From Flavobacteriales bacterium (lineage in GTDB: Bacteria; Bacteroidota; Bacteroidia; Flavobacteriales_D; Sanyastnellaceae): a stretch of 34,650 bases of DNA. The translations under genes and the position numbers were made by a program. Under the pieces are notes generated by a model that saw only the letters and a program-made list of their open reading frames with translations, did no database searches and was not told where the DNA came from. Position 1 is the stretch's first letter. Each line of letters starts with the position of its first letter. The DNA lies in assembly GCA_027491215.1 (NCBI GenBank), contig JAIXWP010000045.1:1-34650 (forward strand), read 5' to 3'. Shown piece after piece: positions 26,261-34,650 of this stretch.

Positions 26261-26980
26261 TCAGAAACTTTTTTCTAGAGAAGGTGCCGTAAATCGATAT
26301 CCTACTCCTCTGACGGAGTGAAAGTAGATTGGTTGCCTGCTGTCAGGCTCAAAATATTTTCGAAAAGCCAAAATATAGTTGTCAATCGTACGCGTGCTAG
26401 GGAAAACATCATATCCCCAAACTTTTTCCAAAATCTCCTCTCGACTGACTACTTCACCCTCACGCTGGATTAATAATTTCAGAAGCATAATCTCCTTTTT
26501 AGAAATTTCATGCTGAACACCCTCTTTGTCTTTAATAGTGAAATGGAGAAAATTCACATAATTAGGACCAAAGGAATAATCGTCTTGCTCCGATAAATGC
26601 TTCTGACCAGAGTCGTGTCTTATGATTAACTTACTCACACGAAGCAATAATTCTTCGAGATCAAATGGTTTAGCCAAGTAATCATCGCCTCCCAACTTCA
26701 ATCCTTCGATCTTATCTTTTCCCGTACCTTTTGCTGATAAAAATAGAATCGGAGTCTTATTCCCTTCTAATCGCACCGTTTGACAAACTGCGAATCCATC
26801 CAACTCAGGCAGCATCACATCTAAAATGGCCAAGTCGAACGCTTGATTTCGAAACTTATCCAAAGCCATGTGCCCATCTATTGCCAACACTACATGATAG
26901 CCTTCGAGTTCGAGGTTTAATTTTACCATCGACGACAGGCTTTCTTCATCCTCCACAAGTAATATGCGATATGCACTCAT
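26261..26980 (-). CDS. OmpR/PhoB-family response regulator
   Basis: This 239-residue two-component response regulator has a receiver domain (about 3-120) with the acidic pocket E10-D11, phospho-accepting D54 (LAILDVMLPELDGF), S82 and K104 (LAKPFD). A C-terminal winged helix follows (about 135-233), with SKKEIMLLKLLIQREGEVVSREEILEKVWGYDVFPSTRTIDNYI and YFHSVRGVGYRFTAP. All phosphotransfer residues are present, so it should respond to a histidine kinase, but none is encoded next to it here. It is divergent from the men operon across a 67-base gap, which invites the untested idea that it controls that operon. Confidence 0.94.
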   Translation of the reverse strand: MSAYRILLVEDEESLSSMVKLNLELEGYHVVLAIDGHMALDKFRNQAFDLAILDVMLPELDGFAVCQTVRLEGNKTPILFLSAKGTGKDKIEGLKLGGDDYLAKPFDLEELLLRVSKLIIRHDSGQKHLSEQDDYSFGPNYVNFLHFTIKDKEGVQHEISKKEIMLLKLLIQREGEVVSREEILEKVWGYDVFPSTRTIDNYILAFRKYFEPDSRQPIYFHSVRGVGYRFTAPSLEKSF

Positions 26981-27047: not shown

Positions 27048-27467
27048 ATGACCGAACAGGAAAGAGTAGAAGCAGTCAACGCTTTGCGCACTACCACATT
27101 GATGGGAGCGCTTGGAATGGAAATCACGGTGATTAAAGAAGGCTATATAGAGGCTACAATGCCAGTGGACGCAAGAACGCATCAACCTTACGGATTGCTG
27201 CACGGAGGAGCATCTGCTGCACTCGCTGAAACAATTGGAAGCTTTGGATCTCACATCCTTGTTGAAAAGGATGGCGGTATAGCTGTTGGCGTAGAATTGA
27301 ATATCAATCACCTGAAAAGTAAGAGACATGGCCTTGTAACAGGTAAGGGCACAATTATCCATCAAGGCAGATCTTCGCATGTTTGGAATATTGAAATTTG
27401 CGATGAAAACGGCGGACTTCTAGCCGTAAGTCGTTTAACAGTAATGGTGAAAAGAAAGGGTGAGTAA
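27048..27467 (+). CDS. menI: Hotdog-fold thioesterase, probable DHNA-CoA hydrolase of menaquinone synthesis
   Basis: This 139-residue protein has a PaaI/YdiI-type hotdog fold. The catalytic region is YGLLHGGASAALAETIGSFGS, with H52 and E61 as the expected active residues, followed by GVELNINHLKSKRHGLVTGKG. The YdiI (MenI) subgroup hydrolyses 1,4-dihydroxy-2-naphthoyl-CoA, the step between MenB and MenA. Both of those genes lie in the same operon, which strongly supports that role here. The motif alone cannot exclude another acyl-CoA thioesterase. It is the first gene of the cluster, and its stop lies one base before the ATG I chose for menF. Confidence 0.8.
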   Translation: MTEQERVEAVNALRTTTLMGALGMEITVIKEGYIEATMPVDARTHQPYGLLHGGASAALAETIGSFGSHILVEKDGGIAVGVELNINHLKSKRHGLVTGKGTIIHQGRSSHVWNIEICDENGGLLAVSRLTVMVKRKGE

Positions 27468-27468
27468 C

Positions 27469-28452
27469 ATGTGGAATCGCATTGCTCAAGCTTGGAACAA
27501 TCAAGAATCCTTCGCCATTGGGCGATTGCCCCATGCTTCAAAGACTGAGTTTTTTTTTCATGGAAAAAGTAATGAGCTAATCAGTGCCGATGGCGATTGC
27601 TGGTTTACCATTCCTTTTGATCCAACACGAGCGGGGTCTCATGATAATGGCCCAACGCTTCGCGAGGAGCACGAGCAGTCAGTTAAAATGGCGATTCAAG
27701 AGCTCCGGTCAGGAGTTGCAGAAAAGGTGGTGATTAGTAAAATCAAGGTAGTGCCGTTTGATCTCATTCAAAATGGAAGCGACATCGAACGTATTTTCGT
27801 TTCTCTCAGTGAAAAATTTCCATCGGCTTTCACATTTTTCTACAGTATTAAAAATGAAGCGTGGATAGGAGCGACCCCTGAAGTTTTATTTGAAAAGAAA
27901 GAGCACCAAATCAAAACAGTGTCGCTTGCGGGAACTCGTCTCGCTACTGGATCGAACGAAGAATGGGGTCAAAAAGAAAAGCGCGAACAACAAGTAGTAA
28001 CCGATTTTATTACAAATACAATAAATGAAATAAATGGTAAGTCGCTCCAAATCAATGGTCCATTTACAGCACAAGCCGCTCATTTAGAGCATCTCAAATC
28101 AGAATTATCTTTCGAGTCAGAGCTTGATATTTTTTCTCTGGTCAAAGCTTTTCATCCCACACCTGCAGTTTGTGGACTTCCGCGCGGGGCTGGATTTCAA
28201 CTTATTAATCGATTGGAAAAACATGAGAGAGGAAATTATGCGGGAGTTGTTGGTTGGACGAGTGCACAAAGCGCCCACTTGTTTGTTCAATTGAGGTGCG
28301 CACGAATAGATGCAACTGCAAATAAAGCCTACATCTTTTCAGGAGGAGGAATCATGAAAGATTCAATACCAGAAAAAGAATGGGAGGAAGCAGAAAACAA
28401 AGCGAATGTGATGTTGAATTTGTTTTCTGAATTAGCTTCGCAACGCAAATGA
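27469..28452 (+). CDS. menF: Isochorismate synthase
   Basis: This enzyme turns chorismate into isochorismate, the first step of menaquinone synthesis. The C-terminal chorismate-binding fold is present: WIGATPEVLFEKK, then TVSLAGTRLA, FHPTPAVCGLPRG and HERGNYAGVVGW, ending with FSGGGIMKDSIPEKEWEEAENK. It is 327 residues from the ATG at 27469, shorter than E. coli MenF or EntC because the N-terminal part is reduced, as is usual in Bacteroidota. A GTG at 27460 would add three residues and overlap the thioesterase gene by eight bases; I prefer the ATG one base after the stop. Its end overlaps menD by four bases (ATGA). Confidence 0.93.
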   Translation: MWNRIAQAWNNQESFAIGRLPHASKTEFFFHGKSNELISADGDCWFTIPFDPTRAGSHDNGPTLREEHEQSVKMAIQELRSGVAEKVVISKIKVVPFDLIQNGSDIERIFVSLSEKFPSAFTFFYSIKNEAWIGATPEVLFEKKEHQIKTVSLAGTRLATGSNEEWGQKEKREQQVVTDFITNTINEINGKSLQINGPFTAQAAHLEHLKSELSFESELDIFSLVKAFHPTPAVCGLPRGAGFQLINRLEKHERGNYAGVVGWTSAQSAHLFVQLRCARIDATANKAYIFSGGGIMKDSIPEKEWEEAENKANVMLNLFSELASQRK

Positions 28453-30140
28453 TCTCAGATAAAAAAGCCATTCAAGATATAGTAGCTCTTCTCGAAAAAA
28501 AGGGAGTCACTCATGTGATTATCACCCCAGGATCGAGAAACGCTCCTTTTTCTCTTTCACTTTATAAGCATCCATCATTTCAAGTGATGAGCGTAGTGGA
28601 CGAGCGCTCAGCTGCATTTATCGCCCTTGGAATCGCTCAGCAGTCAGATAAACCTGTAGCACTCATTTGTACTAGCGGAACCGCTGCACTCAACTATGCA
28701 CCTGCGATTGCGGAAGCATTCTATCAAGAAGTCCCACTGATTGTCATCACAGCTGACCGCCCAATGGAATGGGTAAATCAAGGAGAAGGACAAACGATCA
28801 ATCAGTCAGGAGTTTTCAAAAATTTTGTTAGAGCTTCTTTCGATATCATTCAAGATATGGATGATAAAGATTTCGAATGGTACAATGCACGCGTGATGAA
28901 CGAAGCTATTGATCGTGCTATGAGCCCTGTTCGCGGCCCTATACACTTGAATTTTCCGTTGCGAGAAAGCTTATATAAAAAGGTGGATCATCCCAAAGCT
29001 GAGGTGAAGGTAATTACCACAGTGAGGAAAGAGATTGCTCTGCCATTGAGCGTATTGCATGAATTAGGTACTTCCATTTCTTCGAAAAGGAAGGTCATTA
29101 TTTTAGTTGGACAGTTTCATACATGTGAAACTACTAAGTCACTATTGAAAAAATGGTCGGAGTTTCCAAATGTCTTAGTTCTTACAGAATCTCATTCTGG
29201 CCTTGAAGATGATGCATTTATCGGATGCATTGATCGCATGTTGAATACACTTCGTGAAGAAGAAATGGAACAGTTTAGGCCTGAACTGGTAATCGCAATT
29301 GGTAAAAATATTATTTCAAGAAAAATAAAAGCACTACTTCGCCATGATGAAGTAGAGCATTGGTATGTTTCAGAGGATGCCCAATTGTTAGATACTTTCC
29401 AACGATTGACGCGCATTGTACCTGTCACTCCAGAGCGTTTCTTCGAAGATGTAATCACGTTTGTTCAAACGCCACCCACAAATTATCGGGAGCGTTTTAT
29501 GTCGCTGAACGCATCCAAGAAGAATGTAGGAAATAATTTTGCTAGCAAAGCTGCTTTCTCAGATTTAAAGGCAAGCTTTGAAATTATGCAACACCTTCCA
29601 GCAAACTCGCTCATTCAAATGGGCAATAGTAGCGTTGCCAGATATATTCAACTATTTGATCGACCTGAGCATTTGAGGTTTTCTGGAAACCGCGGTGTAA
29701 GCGGAATTGATGGTTGTACAAGTACTGCTATCGGCGCGGCTATGATGTCAGATAAAGTGACAACGCTAATTAGTGGAGACGTAAGTTTTTTATATGATAG
29801 CAATGCGTTTTGGAATAAATATGTTCCAGATAACTTAAAGGTAATTGTGATCAATAATGGAGGTGGAGGTATTTTCAGAATCATTGATGGGCCATCTTCT
29901 ACAGATGCTCTAGAAGAATTCTTCGAGACACATCATGATCGTTCCGCAGGTGATATCGCGCAGCTTTATAAACTTCCATTTTATCAAGCCACTGATGAGT
30001 CAACCTTGAAAGTAGGACTTAAATGGTTGTATGCACAACAACATTGCGCAGTGCTTGAAGTCATCACACCACGATTAGAGAATGATAAAATATTGAAAGA
30101 ATATTTTAAAACGATAAAAGAGAATACAACATTATCATAA
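28449..30140 (+). CDS. menD: SEPHCHC synthase (2-succinyl-5-enolpyruvyl-6-hydroxy-3-cyclohexene-1-carboxylate synthase)
   Basis: MenD (563 residues) is a thiamine-diphosphate enzyme that joins 2-oxoglutarate and isochorismate with loss of CO2. The N-terminal domain has [18 protein letters not shown] and the ThDP-activating glutamate E52 in [13 protein letters not shown]. The C-terminal ThDP/Mg2+-binding block (about 438-477) reads [16 protein letters not shown] and then [12 protein letters not shown], a textbook MenD motif. Length is normal. It starts inside the last codons of menF and is followed after seven bases by menB. Confidence 0.97.
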
Positions 30141-30147
30141 CAAGAAT

Positions 30148-30963
30148 ATGAGACAGTGGATAACCATCAAGGAATACAGTGATATTCTGTTTGAATATTA
30201 CGAAGGAATCGCGAAGATTACCATTAATAGACCCCAGGTTTATAATGCGTTTCGTCCGGAAACGAATTTGCAAATGATCGACGCGATGGACATTTGTCGT
30301 GAGCGTCAAGACATTGCTGTGGTAGTTCTTACAGGAACTGGTGATAAAGCGTTTTGCAGCGGTGGCGATCAGAATGTGAAGGGTGTTGGTGGTTACATCG
30401 GTGAAGATGGAGTGCCACGTTTGAATGTGTTAGATCTTCATAAACGTATCCGCGAATTACCTAAGCCAGTTATTGCAATGGTCAATGGCTATGCCATTGG
30501 AGGAGGTCACGTATTGCACGTGGTATGCGATCTCACGATCGCATCTGACAATGCTCGCTTTGGTCAAACAGGTCCTAAGGTTGGAAGCTTTGACGCAGGA
30601 TTTGGATCGAGCTACCTGGCTCGCCACGTTGGTCAAAAGAAGGCAAGAGAGATTTGGTTCCTTTGTGAGCAATACACTGCAAAAGAAGCAGAGGATATGG
30701 GAATGGTCAATAAAGTTGTTCCTCTTGCTGATCTCGAAGAAACAACCGTTCAATGGTGTAAAACCATCATGAAAAGAAGTCCACTTGCAGTGCGTATGAT
30801 CAAGCGGGGCTTGAACGCTGAGTTGGATGGTCAGCGTGGATTAATGGAGTTTGCAGGAGATGCAACATTGCTTTATTACTTGACTGAAGAAGCACAAGAA
30901 GGTAAGAAAGCCTTTCTCGAAAAGAGAGACCCAGACTTCCAGAAATTTCCAAAATTCCCATAA
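30148..30963 (+). CDS. menB: 1,4-dihydroxy-2-naphthoyl-CoA synthase
   Basis: MenB (271 residues) is a crotonase-fold enzyme that closes the second ring of the naphthoquinone from O-succinylbenzoyl-CoA. The oxyanion-hole segments are [13 protein letters not shown] and [44 protein letters not shown], the second being diagnostic for MenB. The C-terminal [17 protein letters not shown] and the [16 protein letters not shown] ending are also typical. It lies seven bases after menD and eight before menA. Confidence 0.97.
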
Positions 30964-30971
30964 GGGTAGAA

Positions 30972-31880
30972 ATGGCAACAACAAATCATTGGCTAGGGGC
31001 TATGCGTCTTCGCACGCTGCCTCTGGCTCTTTCCAGTATAGTAGCTGGTATAGCTATTTCTATGGAGCGAGCTTCAGTTGAATTGCTTCCTGCAATACTT
31101 ATCGTTCTCACTACGATTTTTCTACAGATACTTTCAAATTTTGCCAACGATTATGGCGACTTCAAAAATGGTGCGGACAACACGGAGCGAATAGGGCCGA
31201 AACGGGCTGTTCAAAGCGGTGTCATTTCAGCGTCACAAATGAAGAATGCAATTATTCTATTAGTCGTCTTATCACTTGTTTCTGGTTTTTCATTGCTTTG
31301 GTTGACGCTAGGAAATAGAGGCCTATTTCTTGAAGCACTGAGTCTATTGGTTATTGGCCTTGGCGCAATCGCTGCGGCAATCAAATACACTGCTGGAAAA
31401 AACCCATACGGATATAAGGGTTGGGGAGACTTCTTTGTCTTTTTGTTTTTCGGTATTGTCGGAATAGGCGGCACCACTTTTTTGCTCGCAGGTAATATCA
31501 CATGGTCAGATGGACTTTTGATGCTCACTGTTGGCTGTCTCAGCACCGCAGTCTTAAATCTGAATAACTTAAGGGATCATATCAATGATGCAAAAACAGG
31601 TAAGAAAACATTGGTTGTGAAATGGGGATTTGAAGATGGGAAGTTCTACCATTATGTATTGATTATTACAGCACTCGTATCTGCTGCGATGTTTGCTCTT
31701 TTAATGAATAATCTGCTATTTTTTATACCATTGATTGTGGGAGTCATTTTAGTTAAAAACATAGTCTTTGTCGCCAAGTGTAATGTACCACAAGCATTGG
31801 ATAGTGAATTAAAGAAAGTGGCGCTTTCAGCATTTTTATATTCACTCATACTACTTATATGTGTGAGTGTAAGCGTTTGA
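30972..31880 (+). CDS. menA: 1,4-dihydroxy-2-naphthoate polyprenyltransferase
   Basis: MenA (302 residues) is a UbiA-family membrane enzyme that attaches the prenyl tail to 1,4-dihydroxy-2-naphthoate, giving demethylmenaquinone. The first Asp-rich motif is NDYGDFKNGAD (59-69), which binds the Mg2+-diphosphate, and the second is NLRDHINDAKTGKKTL in the middle of the protein. Eight or nine hydrophobic segments are visible. The DNTERIGPKRAVQSG stretch is typical of MenA. It follows menB directly and precedes an unexpected membrane-protein gene by 31 bases. Confidence 0.95.
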   Translation: MATTNHWLGAMRLRTLPLALSSIVAGIAISMERASVELLPAILIVLTTIFLQILSNFANDYGDFKNGADNTERIGPKRAVQSGVISASQMKNAIILLVVLSLVSGFSLLWLTLGNRGLFLEALSLLVIGLGAIAAAIKYTAGKNPYGYKGWGDFFVFLFFGIVGIGGTTFLLAGNITWSDGLLMLTVGCLSTAVLNLNNLRDHINDAKTGKKTLVVKWGFEDGKFYHYVLIITALVSAAMFALLMNNLLFFIPLIVGVILVKNIVFVAKCNVPQALDSELKKVALSAFLYSLILLICVSVSV

Positions 31881-31911: not shown

Positions 31912-32973
31912 ATGTCACGTTCTAATGGGTTAATCGGTATTGACATTGCATATATTATTGCTCTTATCGGCTGCTTGTTTGCAAGCATCATTTTCGGTAT
32001 TGGTGGACGATTGCATATGTTGAGTCACGATCACTACTACTTGATCATGGATTTTTTTCCTGCATTGTTTTTCTTTTTAAATGGCTTGACCGTCACTCTT
32101 ACGATGAGAGACCGTCGTATTTCCTCGCGCAGATTGCTTTCATACCTAGGAAAAAGAGGGATGATTTTGGTGTTGGTTGGCTTGTTGTTTATCAAAGTAT
32201 GGCCCCTCAATTTACTATTTGCCTCTGGAATATTTTATCTTATTGCACCATTCTTCGCACAGTGGAACAATATCATACTACGATCACTACTTGTAGTTGT
32301 TTGGTTATTATCTATTGTATTGATCAACTTTGATGTACCGACTACAACATTGTACTCTGGTATTCACCTCGGGGGTGCAAACTTCAAGCATCTTTTTTCG
32401 TTTTTGCTTTTCAATGGTCACTATTCACCGCTACCGTGGTTTATGTTTTTTGTTGCTGGTTTAATATACGGGAGGTCTGATTTAAGACCACGCGGAATCA
32501 TGCCTCCATCAAGCCTTGTAGCTATTTTGTTCATGCTTGCTGCTGTTGGTTTAGAAGGGTATAGTACGAAGGTGTACGGTGTAAAAGACAAAGAAGACAT
32601 CTTATCACTAGTGGGTTTGAATATCAAATTTTACCTACCAGCATTTTTAATTTTTGCTACTGCGTTATGTTTTTTGGTGATGAATGTTGTCAATTATCTC
32701 TTCAGATCATCACTCTCCAAATCGCGATTAGCGCTCATTCACTCCGTATCAGGATCGAAGTACTCTATTTATTTCTTCGTAATGTTTTTTGGAAGCATTA
32801 TAGCTTCAATCACTAATACTATCATTTTTCGAGATAAATGGGTGATATTCTTTTTCGCTTTAGCTCTCATTTCATTCAGCCTTTATATCAGTTACATTTG
32901 GAGAAAGCGTATTTCACAAACAACACCAATTGAATGGATGATCAAGAAAGTATCCAGTTCCACCAAGAAGTAA
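31912..32973 (+). CDS. DUF418/acyltransferase-like multi-pass membrane protein inside the men operon
   Basis: This 353-residue protein has about nine or ten hydrophobic segments and resembles the DUF418 / heparan-alpha-glucosaminide N-acetyltransferase-like group. The N terminus has GIDIAYIIALIGCLFASIIFG, then HDHYYLIMDFFPALFFFLNG. The C terminus SYIWRKRISQTTPIEWMIKK resembles the G-P-x-E-W-x-x-R ending of DUF418 proteins. That group includes proteins that move acetyl groups across the membrane to sugars, but no reaction can be assigned here. It is placed between menA and menC, and its last 40 bases overlap the menC start, so it belongs to the operon transcriptionally. It has no known step in menaquinone synthesis. 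Confidence 0.7.
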   Translation: MSRSNGLIGIDIAYIIALIGCLFASIIFGIGGRLHMLSHDHYYLIMDFFPALFFFLNGLTVTLTMRDRRISSRRLLSYLGKRGMILVLVGLLFIKVWPLNLLFASGIFYLIAPFFAQWNNIILRSLLVVVWLLSIVLINFDVPTTTLYSGIHLGGANFKHLFSFLLFNGHYSPLPWFMFFVAGLIYGRSDLRPRGIMPPSSLVAILFMLAAVGLEGYSTKVYGVKDKEDILSLVGLNIKFYLPAFLIFATALCFLVMNVVNYLFRSSLSKSRLALIHSVSGSKYSIYFFVMFFGSIIASITNTIIFRDKWVIFFFALALISFSLYISYIWRKRISQTTPIEWMIKKVSSSTKK

Positions 32974-33998
32974 CTTGGAGTTATTCGAAGTATCGGCTGC
33001 AATTTTACAAGCCTGCAAAGACTTCGCGTGATACGCTGACAGAGCGCTTGATTTTTATTTTGAAAGCTTCTTCTAATAATCTTTCCGACATTTCAGGGAT
33101 AGGAGAGTGCGCCCCAATCTATGGACTTAGCGTTGAGCCTGCCGCAGAAATTGAATCAATGGTTCAAGCAGCTATTGACGGTTTAAATCGAGGAACTATT
33201 CAAAAACCATCGGATATCAGCAGCCCTGCCATTCGCTTCGCAGTAGAGTCGGCTTGGTTGGATTTTACACATGGAGGAAAAAGACTCATTGTAAATCAGA
33301 AAAACAATAGCATTTCTATTAATGGACTGGTATGGATGAACGAGAAAGAGGCTATGCTTAATGAAGCCTTTGAAAAAATAGCGAATGGATATTCGGTTAT
33401 AAAACTTAAGATTGGAGGGTTGAATTTCGATGATGAACTTTCGATCCTCCATACGCTGAGACAGAAATATGAAAACCGAATCATCATTCGGTTGGATGCT
33501 AATGGAGCTTTCTCTTTTGAGACAGCGATGGAGAAACTAAATGCCTTGGCAGAGTTCGGCATTCATTCCATTGAGCAACCTATTAAAAGCGGTCAATGGG
33601 ATGCTATGAGAATGCTCTGCGAATCTTCTCCGATACCCATAGCCTTAGATGAGGAATTGATAGGCGTGGAGAAAAAAGAAGAAAAAATAGCCTTGCTTGA
33701 TACCATTAGACCACAATACATTATTCTAAAACCTACACTACATGGCGGTCTTTATGGTAGTGATGAGTGGATAAGATTGGCTGAAGAGAGAGACATCCAG
33801 TGGTGGGCTACCAGTGCCTTAGAATCCAATATCGGATTGAATGTCATTGCACAATGGGTTCAAAAATGGAATCCACAATTACCCCAAGGACTGGGCACCG
33901 GAGGTTTATACATCAACAATTTTCCTGCAGCTTGGCAAACAAATGCAGGCCAGTTGAATTTTATCAGTACCGCAGACCTTGCAGCAATTGAGTTTTAA
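32934..33998 (+). CDS. menC: o-Succinylbenzoate synthase
   Basis: MenC (354 residues) is an enolase-superfamily enzyme that dehydrates SHCHC to o-succinylbenzoate. The N-terminal capping domain (about 15-125) includes SGIGECAPIYGLSVEP. The barrel holds the catalytic pair K157-x-K159 (VIKLKIG), metal ligands D188 (RLDANGAF), E214 (SIEQPI) and D239 (IALDEEL), and the second lysine K266 (ILKPTLHGG). All are in the order expected for MenC. The only in-frame ATG is at 32934, which makes a 40-base overlap with the membrane-protein gene; the first ten or so residues may be an extension. Its stop overlaps menE as TAATG. Confidence 0.95.
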   Translation: MDDQESIQFHQEVTWSYSKYRLQFYKPAKTSRDTLTERLIFILKASSNNLSDISGIGECAPIYGLSVEPAAEIESMVQAAIDGLNRGTIQKPSDISSPAIRFAVESAWLDFTHGGKRLIVNQKNNSISINGLVWMNEKEAMLNEAFEKIANGYSVIKLKIGGLNFDDELSILHTLRQKYENRIIIRLDANGAFSFETAMEKLNALAEFGIHSIEQPIKSGQWDAMRMLCESSPIPIALDEELIGVEKKEEKIALLDTIRPQYIILKPTLHGGLYGSDEWIRLAEERDIQWWATSALESNIGLNVIAQWVQKWNPQLPQGLGTGGLYINNFPAAWQTNAGQLNFISTADLAAIEF

Positions 33999-34650
33999 TG
34001 CAATCAGTACTTCAAATAAATCACACTAGTATTGATTTCCATCAAGCTGATTGGGAACAAATGTTACGTGTATCTCTAAATGACCATAAAGAGCAAGAAG
34101 GGTTTGTTTCCTTTTTGAAAGAATGGTTTAATGATTCAGATTTTATCACCGCTCACTCTAGCGGCTCGACTGGTGAGCCAAAGCCCATTCAATTAAAGAA
34201 AGAATGGATGAAGAGAAGTGCCGAGCTCACGAGAGATTTTTTTCAAATTCCTAGCGGGTCAGTTGCATTACTTAAACTTCCCATTTCTTTCATTGCAGGA
34301 AAAATGATGGTTGTCCGTGCAATTGAAAACAATTGGCACCTGATTACTGCAACGCCTAATTCACTAGCTGACTGGGAAAATAGTGATATCACTTTTGCAG
34401 CCTTTACTCCGATGCAGGTAGATTCATTTTTACAAGAAAATAAAGAGAAGTATCAGAAGATAGAAACGGTCATCATAGGTGGAGGAAAGACGTCTGATGC
34501 ATTATGGAATGTTCTTTCAACATGTTCAAATTCCAATTACTTGACCTATGGAATGACAGAAACCTGTACCCATGTTGCTGTGCAGGAAGTGTCTTCCAAA
34601 AATCAAAATGGATTTTTCAGAGCGCTCCCTGGTGTTCGGTTTTCTATTGA
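33998..34650 (+). CDS. menE: o-Succinylbenzoate-CoA ligase, N-terminal part (cut by the right edge)
   Basis: The first 217 codons of an ANL-superfamily adenylating enzyme are present; the rest lies beyond the window. The ATP-binding loop is AHSSGSTGEPKP (52-63), and a second adenylation motif, YGMTETCTHVAV, lies near 184-195. MenE activates o-succinylbenzoate to its CoA thioester between MenC and MenB. The N-terminal region before the loop is short, as in Bacteroidota MenE. The ATG overlaps the menC stop by one base. Placement right after menC makes the assignment firm despite truncation. Confidence 0.9.
   Translation, partial: MQSVLQINHTSIDFHQADWEQMLRVSLNDHKEQEGFVSFLKEWFNDSDFITAHSSGSTGEPKPIQLKKEWMKRSAELTRDFFQIPSGSVALLKLPISFIAGKMMVVRAIENNWHLITATPNSLADWENSDITFAAFTPMQVDSFLQENKEKYQKIETVIIGGGKTSDALWNVLSTCSNSNYLTYGMTETCTHVAVQEVSSKNQNGFFRALPGVRFSI

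Follow-up and report, generated by a model that had tools for sequence, protein, structure and literature searches.

Why does a gene for a membrane protein lie in the middle of a menaquinone gene cluster, in a pathway whose early steps (MenF, MenD, MenC, MenE and MenB) are regarded as soluble and complete? The open reading frame in question, here called X, was found in a 34,650-nucleotide stretch of Flavobacteriales DNA (contig JAIXWP010000045.1, assembly GCA_027491215.1), referred to below as the window. The initial annotation had described its product as DUF418/acyltransferase-like and proposed that it might modify a quinone, move an intermediate, or simply be a passenger supplying translational coupling.

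X overlaps menC within the menaquinone gene cluster

The position of X between menA and menC and its 40-base overlap with menC are as the initial annotation gave them, and family models (Pfam and NCBIfam) confirm the neighbours as belonging to a men operon (Table 1). The genes run in the order thioesterase, menF, menD, menB, menA, X, menC and menE. On inspection of the sequence no later in-frame ATG, GTG or TTG was found in menC before its conserved TSRDTL region, so that the overlapping ATG is the only plausible menC start. No menH was found among the genes of the cluster by Pfam, which raised the idea that X stands in for MenH; MenH, however, is a soluble hydrolase, whereas X is a membrane protein. 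A search of the window's own genome with X returned one match at E values up to 1, X itself. Between positions 26900 and 34650 we counted 16 promoter-like and 7 terminator-like sites, compared to 18.8 and 5.3 in shuffled sequences, which is no better than chance in either case.

Table 1. Genes of the menaquinone cluster in the window and the evidence on which each assignment is based
Feature	Position	Strand	Evidence
Hotdog thioesterase opening the cluster; probable DHNA-CoA hydrolase	27048-27467	+	PF03061
menF, isochorismate synthase	27460-28452	+	PF00425, chorismate-binding
menD	28449-30140	+	TPP_enzyme_N and TPP_enzyme_M_2
menB	30148-30963	+	ECH_1 (enoyl-CoA hydratase); homologues in the same cluster of many relatives
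menA, DHNA polyprenyltransferase	30972-31880	+	UbiA; TIGR00751, 230.9 bits (cut-off 102.15)
X, membrane protein with predicted TmAT fold, 353 aa, ATG start	31912-32973	+	Open reading frame, structural model, fold match, orthologues
X/menC overlap, 40 nt, different frames	32934-32973	+	Open reading frame coordinates
menC, o-succinylbenzoate synthase, 354 aa, ATG start	32934-33998	+	TIGR01927, 136.4 bits (cut-off 130.55); MR_MLE_C; sub-threshold MenC_N
menE, OSB-CoA ligase, truncated at the end of the window	33998-34648	+	AMP-binding; best NCBIfam match TIGR01923 (menE), the fragment scoring below cut-off

X is constantly linked to menC within the family

Using X as the query we obtained matches in 28 of 100 genomes (its own counted), all of them from the window's family (f1). 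A profile built from 25 X orthologues (A1; identities of 20-56 percent, motifs conserved) matched 40 of 114 genomes of this family. One match (G126, 5.0e-7) was dropped because it lies on a different contig from menC, and the 39 genomes left come from 13 of the family's 21 genera and include all three genomes examined from the window's own genus. For reference, menC was found in 102 and menA in 100 of the 114 genomes. Wherever menC is on the same contig as X, X is directly upstream of it and on the same strand (38 of 38 genomes); in the 39th (G105) X ends at the contig edge. The initial annotation had reasoned that absence from nearly all close relatives would point to chance placement, which the distribution found here within the family does not bear out.

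The distance between X and menC ranges from −37 to +44 and is negative, that is overlapping, in 22 of the 38 genomes, where distances are those between aligned ends and not gene ends (in G042 the open reading frames overlap by 4 nt while the aligned ends are 29 apart). From menA to menC the distance is 1056-1201 bp in the 24 X genomes with menA upstream on the same contig and 11-98 bp in 61 genomes of the family without X, identifying X as a presence/absence gene at one junction. In three loci of genus g9 (L035, L036 and L040) and one of genus g8 (L038) X is preceded by a gene other than menA, and X, menC and menE are still together, followed by an open reading frame resembling the Ham1 one of locus L031 (Ham1 was tested in L031 only). 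In G009 menA is located past menC, on the side away from X.

In the three g9 loci menA is replaced, 1-2.5 kb upstream of X, by an MBOAT gene and an open reading frame with no Pfam match (Pfam was run on L036 and L040; the L035 contig has an MBOAT match). A general link between X and extracellular O-acylation by way of this neighbour was considered and dropped, since MBOAT genes occur in 106 of the 114 family genomes, with and without X.

No linkage to menC was seen in the samples outside the family

The initial annotation had called for a survey of men operons across Bacteroidota. In a sample of the order, at least 39 of 249 genomes match profile A1 at 1e-4, of which 36 are from family f1 (G126 included) and three from family f9. 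In a sample of the phylum at least 10 of 395 match at 1e-8, eight of them outside family f1. At most eight candidates per genome were scored in the order and at most five in the phylum, so that misses are possible in both counts. The A1 matches of two f9 genomes (G208 and G256) are ordinary DUF418 proteins, and in none of the three f9 genomes is the homologue beside menC: in G208 and G247 the DUF418/HGSNAT homologue and menC are on separate contigs, and in G256 one homologue is on a different contig from menC and the second lies about 43 kb away from it. All 30 genomes examined from 12 further families have menC. Reading 29 of the 30 loci (the 30th was a distant match) together with the three from f9, we find menA directly upstream of menC in 20 of 32 and no X match at 1e-4 in any of the 32. 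At the eight phylum-sample loci outside family f1, the roughly 1.5 kb of flank examined contains no men match. Thus X was not seen linked to menC in any genome sampled from the order or phylum outside family f1, and the arrangement is a family-level feature rather than a general one of Bacteroidota.

In genomes of families f1, f4 and f5 we noted, beside menA and divergent from it, a gene for a small DUF7793 protein; all six tested match PF25056 (L100:2090-2473 −, L101:3242-3625 −, L109:3564-3965 +, L115:3579-3977 +, L125:48-455 − and L126:2712-3104 +).

The tree fits a single gain of X, which is under purifying selection

A tree of MenA and MenC (63 rows) places two state changes on the history of X, or 2-3 over 200 bootstrap trees. 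On this tree X was gained after genus g18 branched off and lost in one clade, made up of genera g3, g5, g10, g11, g13 and g14 (support 100/100); the deep branches have supports of 91/94, 94/91 and 91/77. The tree samples 26 of the 39 X genomes and 20 of the 75 other family genomes, with 17 of 20 outgroup loci with menA (18 in the variant including ogL129), MenA being available for 58 of 64 rows. The outgroup row ogL129 fell inside family f1; there are two changes when it is omitted and three when it is included. The co-location of X with men genes is constant without amounting to 38 independent events, since all of it descends from one gain. The clade that lost X retains menA and menC, so the pathway does not need X there.

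X is a selected protein. Its dN/dS is 0.024-0.085 over six close pairs (a seventh was saturated), compared to 0.012-0.147 for menA and 0.072-0.148 for menC (seven close pairs each). The X ratios are rough, with dS over 1 in four of the six usable pairs; the two pairs with dS under 0.4 give 0.029 and 0.043. Pairwise distances of X co-vary weakly with those of MenC (partial r of 0.49 given MenA, compared to 0.15 for X and MenA given MenC; 21 genomes, no resampling), which is suggestive only, as neighbouring genes can share mutation rates.

X is predicted to have the TmAT fold

The DUF418/acyltransferase likeness proposed at the outset does not appear for the window protein itself, which matches no Pfam or NCBIfam family (0 families); it emerges from the orthologues and from the predicted fold. 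Judged by the Pfam gathering score, the window protein falls outside DUF418, whereas three orthologues (G008, G013 and G032) pass PF04235 with 45.6, 38.4 and 35.3 bits against a cut-off of 23.6; two more have weaker, sub-threshold matches of the DUF418/acyltransferase type. Among the 25 X orthologues, at E values up to 1, HGSNAT_cat is matched by six (best 1.6e-8), DUF418 by five (best 6.3e-11) and Acyl_transf_3 by three (best 1.6e-4), and NCBIfam YeiB (NF008093) is matched by three at E values up to 0.01 (best 1.2e-5). Neither profile A1 nor a canonical DUF418 protein found a match among the sequences of solved structures, and X is thus placed by fold comparison only.

The best AF2 model of X, built from 11 sequences, is of middling confidence (pLDDT 69.7, pTM 0.78), and the five models range from that pLDDT down to 37.5, two being under 40. 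It has ten spans if 158-188 and 270-300 are each counted as one broken helix, the ninth being broken near 281-283. The top 16 Foldseek chains against this model are HGSNAT, GWT1 or entries titled 'membrane proteins' (8jl4 and 8jkv, the latter being HGSNAT according to PMC12423673), with E values of 5.5e-4 to 1.8e-2 and TM-scores by query length of up to 0.58. VIA-align gives Z scores of 17.5-21.1 for the HGSNAT group and 15.5-16.1 for GWT1, these groups making up the 11 best entries (two of them bearing only the title 'membrane proteins'), and 5.4 for the next entry. The human lysosomal N-acetyltransferase HGSNAT is matched over the whole length (8vlv_A, Z 21.1, rmsd 4.2, 297 residues aligned), and the GPI inositol acyltransferase GWT1, compared by fold alone, reaches Z 16.1 (8xik). 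The model of X thus has the transmembrane acyltransferase (TmAT) fold, a predicted ten-helix core with a bent helix 9; X also carries a C-terminal PxEW motif.

The putative acyl-CoA site of X is partly dismantled

The TmAT signature, as given in PMC12423673, comprises DxxR in TMH1, with Asn (HGSNAT) or His (AT3) further along that helix, FxxxxG in TMH2, the first Arg of RxxR in TMH3, a Gly in TMH6 and a Tyr in TMH9; the same paper reports the helix-1 Arg to be essential in HGSNAT, OafB and OacB. For HGSNAT, PMC11199644 assigns contacts with the CoA diphosphate to Arg275 and Arg345, stabilisation of the acetyl carbonyl to Asn286 and the dyad to His297-Asp307. We compared 31 of the 39 X proteins (omitting G001, G018, G022, G026, G101, G105, G106 and G107, mostly cut by contig ends) with 12 canonical controls, namely 9 of 13 PF04235 places (of the others, three are X and one is a fragment) and the three f9 homologues; two controls lack the N-terminus owing to the choice of start. 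In a separate alignment of X with DUF418 proteins, the own-genome rows L106 (a neighbouring open reading frame) and L105 (cut short) were not used.

The TMH1 Arg is present in none of the 31 X proteins and in 10 of the 12 canonical DUF418 proteins, the other two being gaps, while the Asp of the same motif is found in 20/31 and 10/12 (again two gaps); on alignment, the DxxR signature is lacking in X. The putative equivalent of HGSNAT Asn286, Asn25, occurs in 7/31 X proteins (the window protein has Ser25) compared to 12/12 controls. All 12 controls also have Asp or Glu at position 100 and Tyr105, neither of which is seen in any X (position 100 is Asn in 28), as well as the TMH9 Tyr and His/Gln290, kept in 11 and 10 of the 31 respectively; the window protein has Y287, but the TMH9 signature does not hold for the X family as a whole.

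Other elements are retained. These include the TMH2 FxxxxG motif (F53 in 27/31, with two Tyr, and G58 in 28/31), the first Arg of TMH3, whose equivalence is read from the alignment (R82 in 20/31, Lys in 8 and another residue in 3), and the TMH6 Gly (G183 in all X proteins and all 12 controls), together with W97 (28/31), P339 (31/31) and E341 (30/31). Gly83 (31/31), Lys283 (29/31, plus two Arg), Tyr284 (28/31) and Asp47 (27/31) are found in X and in none of the controls, and F245 in 31/31 compared to 3/12. Asp47 may be the equivalent of HGSNAT Asp307, as in both proteins the Asp is six residues from the TMH2 Phe. His39 is present in 11 of the 31, the window protein among them.

Judged by these residues, X is a coherent subfamily in which the predicted fold is kept and the CoA site appears partly dismantled, from which we infer that acyltransferase activity has probably been lost. 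Compared to DUF418/YeiB proteins (PF04235, NF008093), X shares the C-terminal PxE motif and fold elements but lacks the helix-1 Arg, Asp/Glu100 and Tyr105 and has invariants of its own; moreover, canonical DUF418 loci have no men gene in the fetched flank (0/12), unlike X. Compared to HGSNAT, whose residues we take from PMC11199644 and equate by motif spacing, X would have lost the counterpart of Arg275 and, mostly, that of Asn286, and the family has no conserved His at 39 or 41. Like X, GWT1 departs from the DxxR motif, and it acylates although it has neither the Asp of DxxR nor the catalytic His of HGSNAT (PMC12423673). Since GWT1 is an active enzyme, some residual acyl transfer by X may persist, and the retained helix-3 Arg/Lys and Asp47 would leave room for some catalysis. 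Among the open-licence PMC papers listed, judged by title and the start of the abstract, we saw none linking DUF418, YeiB or HGSNAT proteins to menaquinone genes. The fold and superfamily of X are thus familiar ones, and its residue state and genomic role are unusual.

Possible roles of X

The fixed place of X beside menC, the gene overlap and the selection acting on the protein favour a role in the menaquinone pathway, which we regard as plausible. The reading we prefer, tentatively and with somewhat less than even confidence, is that X serves the MenC-MenE step as a membrane accessory and not as an acyltransferase, having been recruited once with its TmAT fold repurposed. A gene for a protein with the TmAT/DUF418 fold would have entered the junction of menA and menC a single time, at an early stage of family f1, and its product would then have been repurposed, part of the acyl-CoA site being lost and new conserved residues (Gly83, Lys283-Tyr284, Asp47 and Asn100) being gained. 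We infer that X, made together with MenC, would keep either the soluble MenC/MenE or their aromatic carboxylate intermediate (OSB or DHNA) close to MenA at the membrane. A bolder and rather doubtful proposal is that the acyl-CoA pore itself has been reused to hold or pass the carboxylate of naphthoate or succinylbenzoate between MenC/MenE and the membrane, making X a pathway-dedicated pseudo-acyltransferase and adding an unrecognised membrane step to the textbook menaquinone pathway.

A menC-locked, selected protein with the TmAT fold but without the CoA-binding Arg would be either a hitherto unknown membrane organiser or carrier of the pathway, or an acyltransferase fold turned to another task. 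Family f1 offers a natural experiment, in which lineages with X can be set against one clade without it, where menA and menC lie side by side.

The strongest rival, unlikely in our judgement but a serious one, is that X is hitchhiking cargo, a working membrane protein with a non-quinone role (in the cell envelope, for instance) whose gene came by a single event into an essential operon with steady expression and was kept by descent. The single gain would account for the whole distribution of X, menA and menC persist in the clade from which X was lost, and in genus g9 X is preceded by an MBOAT gene and an unassigned gene; TmAT proteins, moreover, are best known as modifiers of extracytosolic glycans (PMC12423673). 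Against this, X remains with menC and menE in loci where it is preceded by a gene other than menA, MBOAT genes do not track X, and part of the common TmAT acyl-CoA site is lost.

It is improbable, in our view, that X is still an acyltransferase, with a changed donor site, that acylates, at the inner membrane's outer face, either a compound of the quinone pathway or some other acceptor. To our knowledge no acylated menaquinone has been described, and Asn25 and the helix-9 Tyr are found in a minority of X proteins (7/31 and 11/31). In favour of this reading, most X proteins retain the FxxxxG motif of helix 2, the Arg/Lys of helix 3 and the Gly of helix 6, 27/31 have an Asp with the spacing of HGSNAT Asp307 and 11/31 have His39, and the activity of GWT1 speaks for tolerance of motif loss; however, the helix-1 Arg reported to be essential in HGSNAT, OafB and OacB is missing in 31/31, which also weakens the initial proposal that X modifies a quinone by acyl-CoA transfer.

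We give little credence to the idea that X exports, imports or flips a carboxylate of the pathway (such as DHNA or OSB) through the old acyl-CoA pore, and we know of no export phenotype. The near-invariant basic residue 283, at the break in the ninth helix, could pair with a carboxylate, and the TmAT fold includes a pore for acyl-CoA that spans the membrane (PMC12423673), but HGSNAT is described in PMC11199644 as not physically transporting its donor, so that it provides no transporter precedent for the fold.

That the open reading frame merely supplies a translating ribosome upstream of menC, the passenger of the initial annotation, is very improbable: the genes do overlap or nearly abut, but coupling alone does not need purifying selection on the protein, motifs are conserved across 20-56 percent identity, and menC follows menA without X in 61 genomes of the family.

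Other variation in the cluster within the family

One genome of genus g15 (G016), 96 percent complete, has neither a menC nor a menA match. In an X-bearing cluster a Ham1/RdgB-like gene and accA follow menE (L031:10097-11693). In genus g14 a single open reading frame of 882 aa (L104:4676-7324, G033) combines MenC, AMP-binding (MenE) and Ham1/RdgB-like domains, and further fusions are suggested by the length of the frames open at menC in this genus (543-896 aa).
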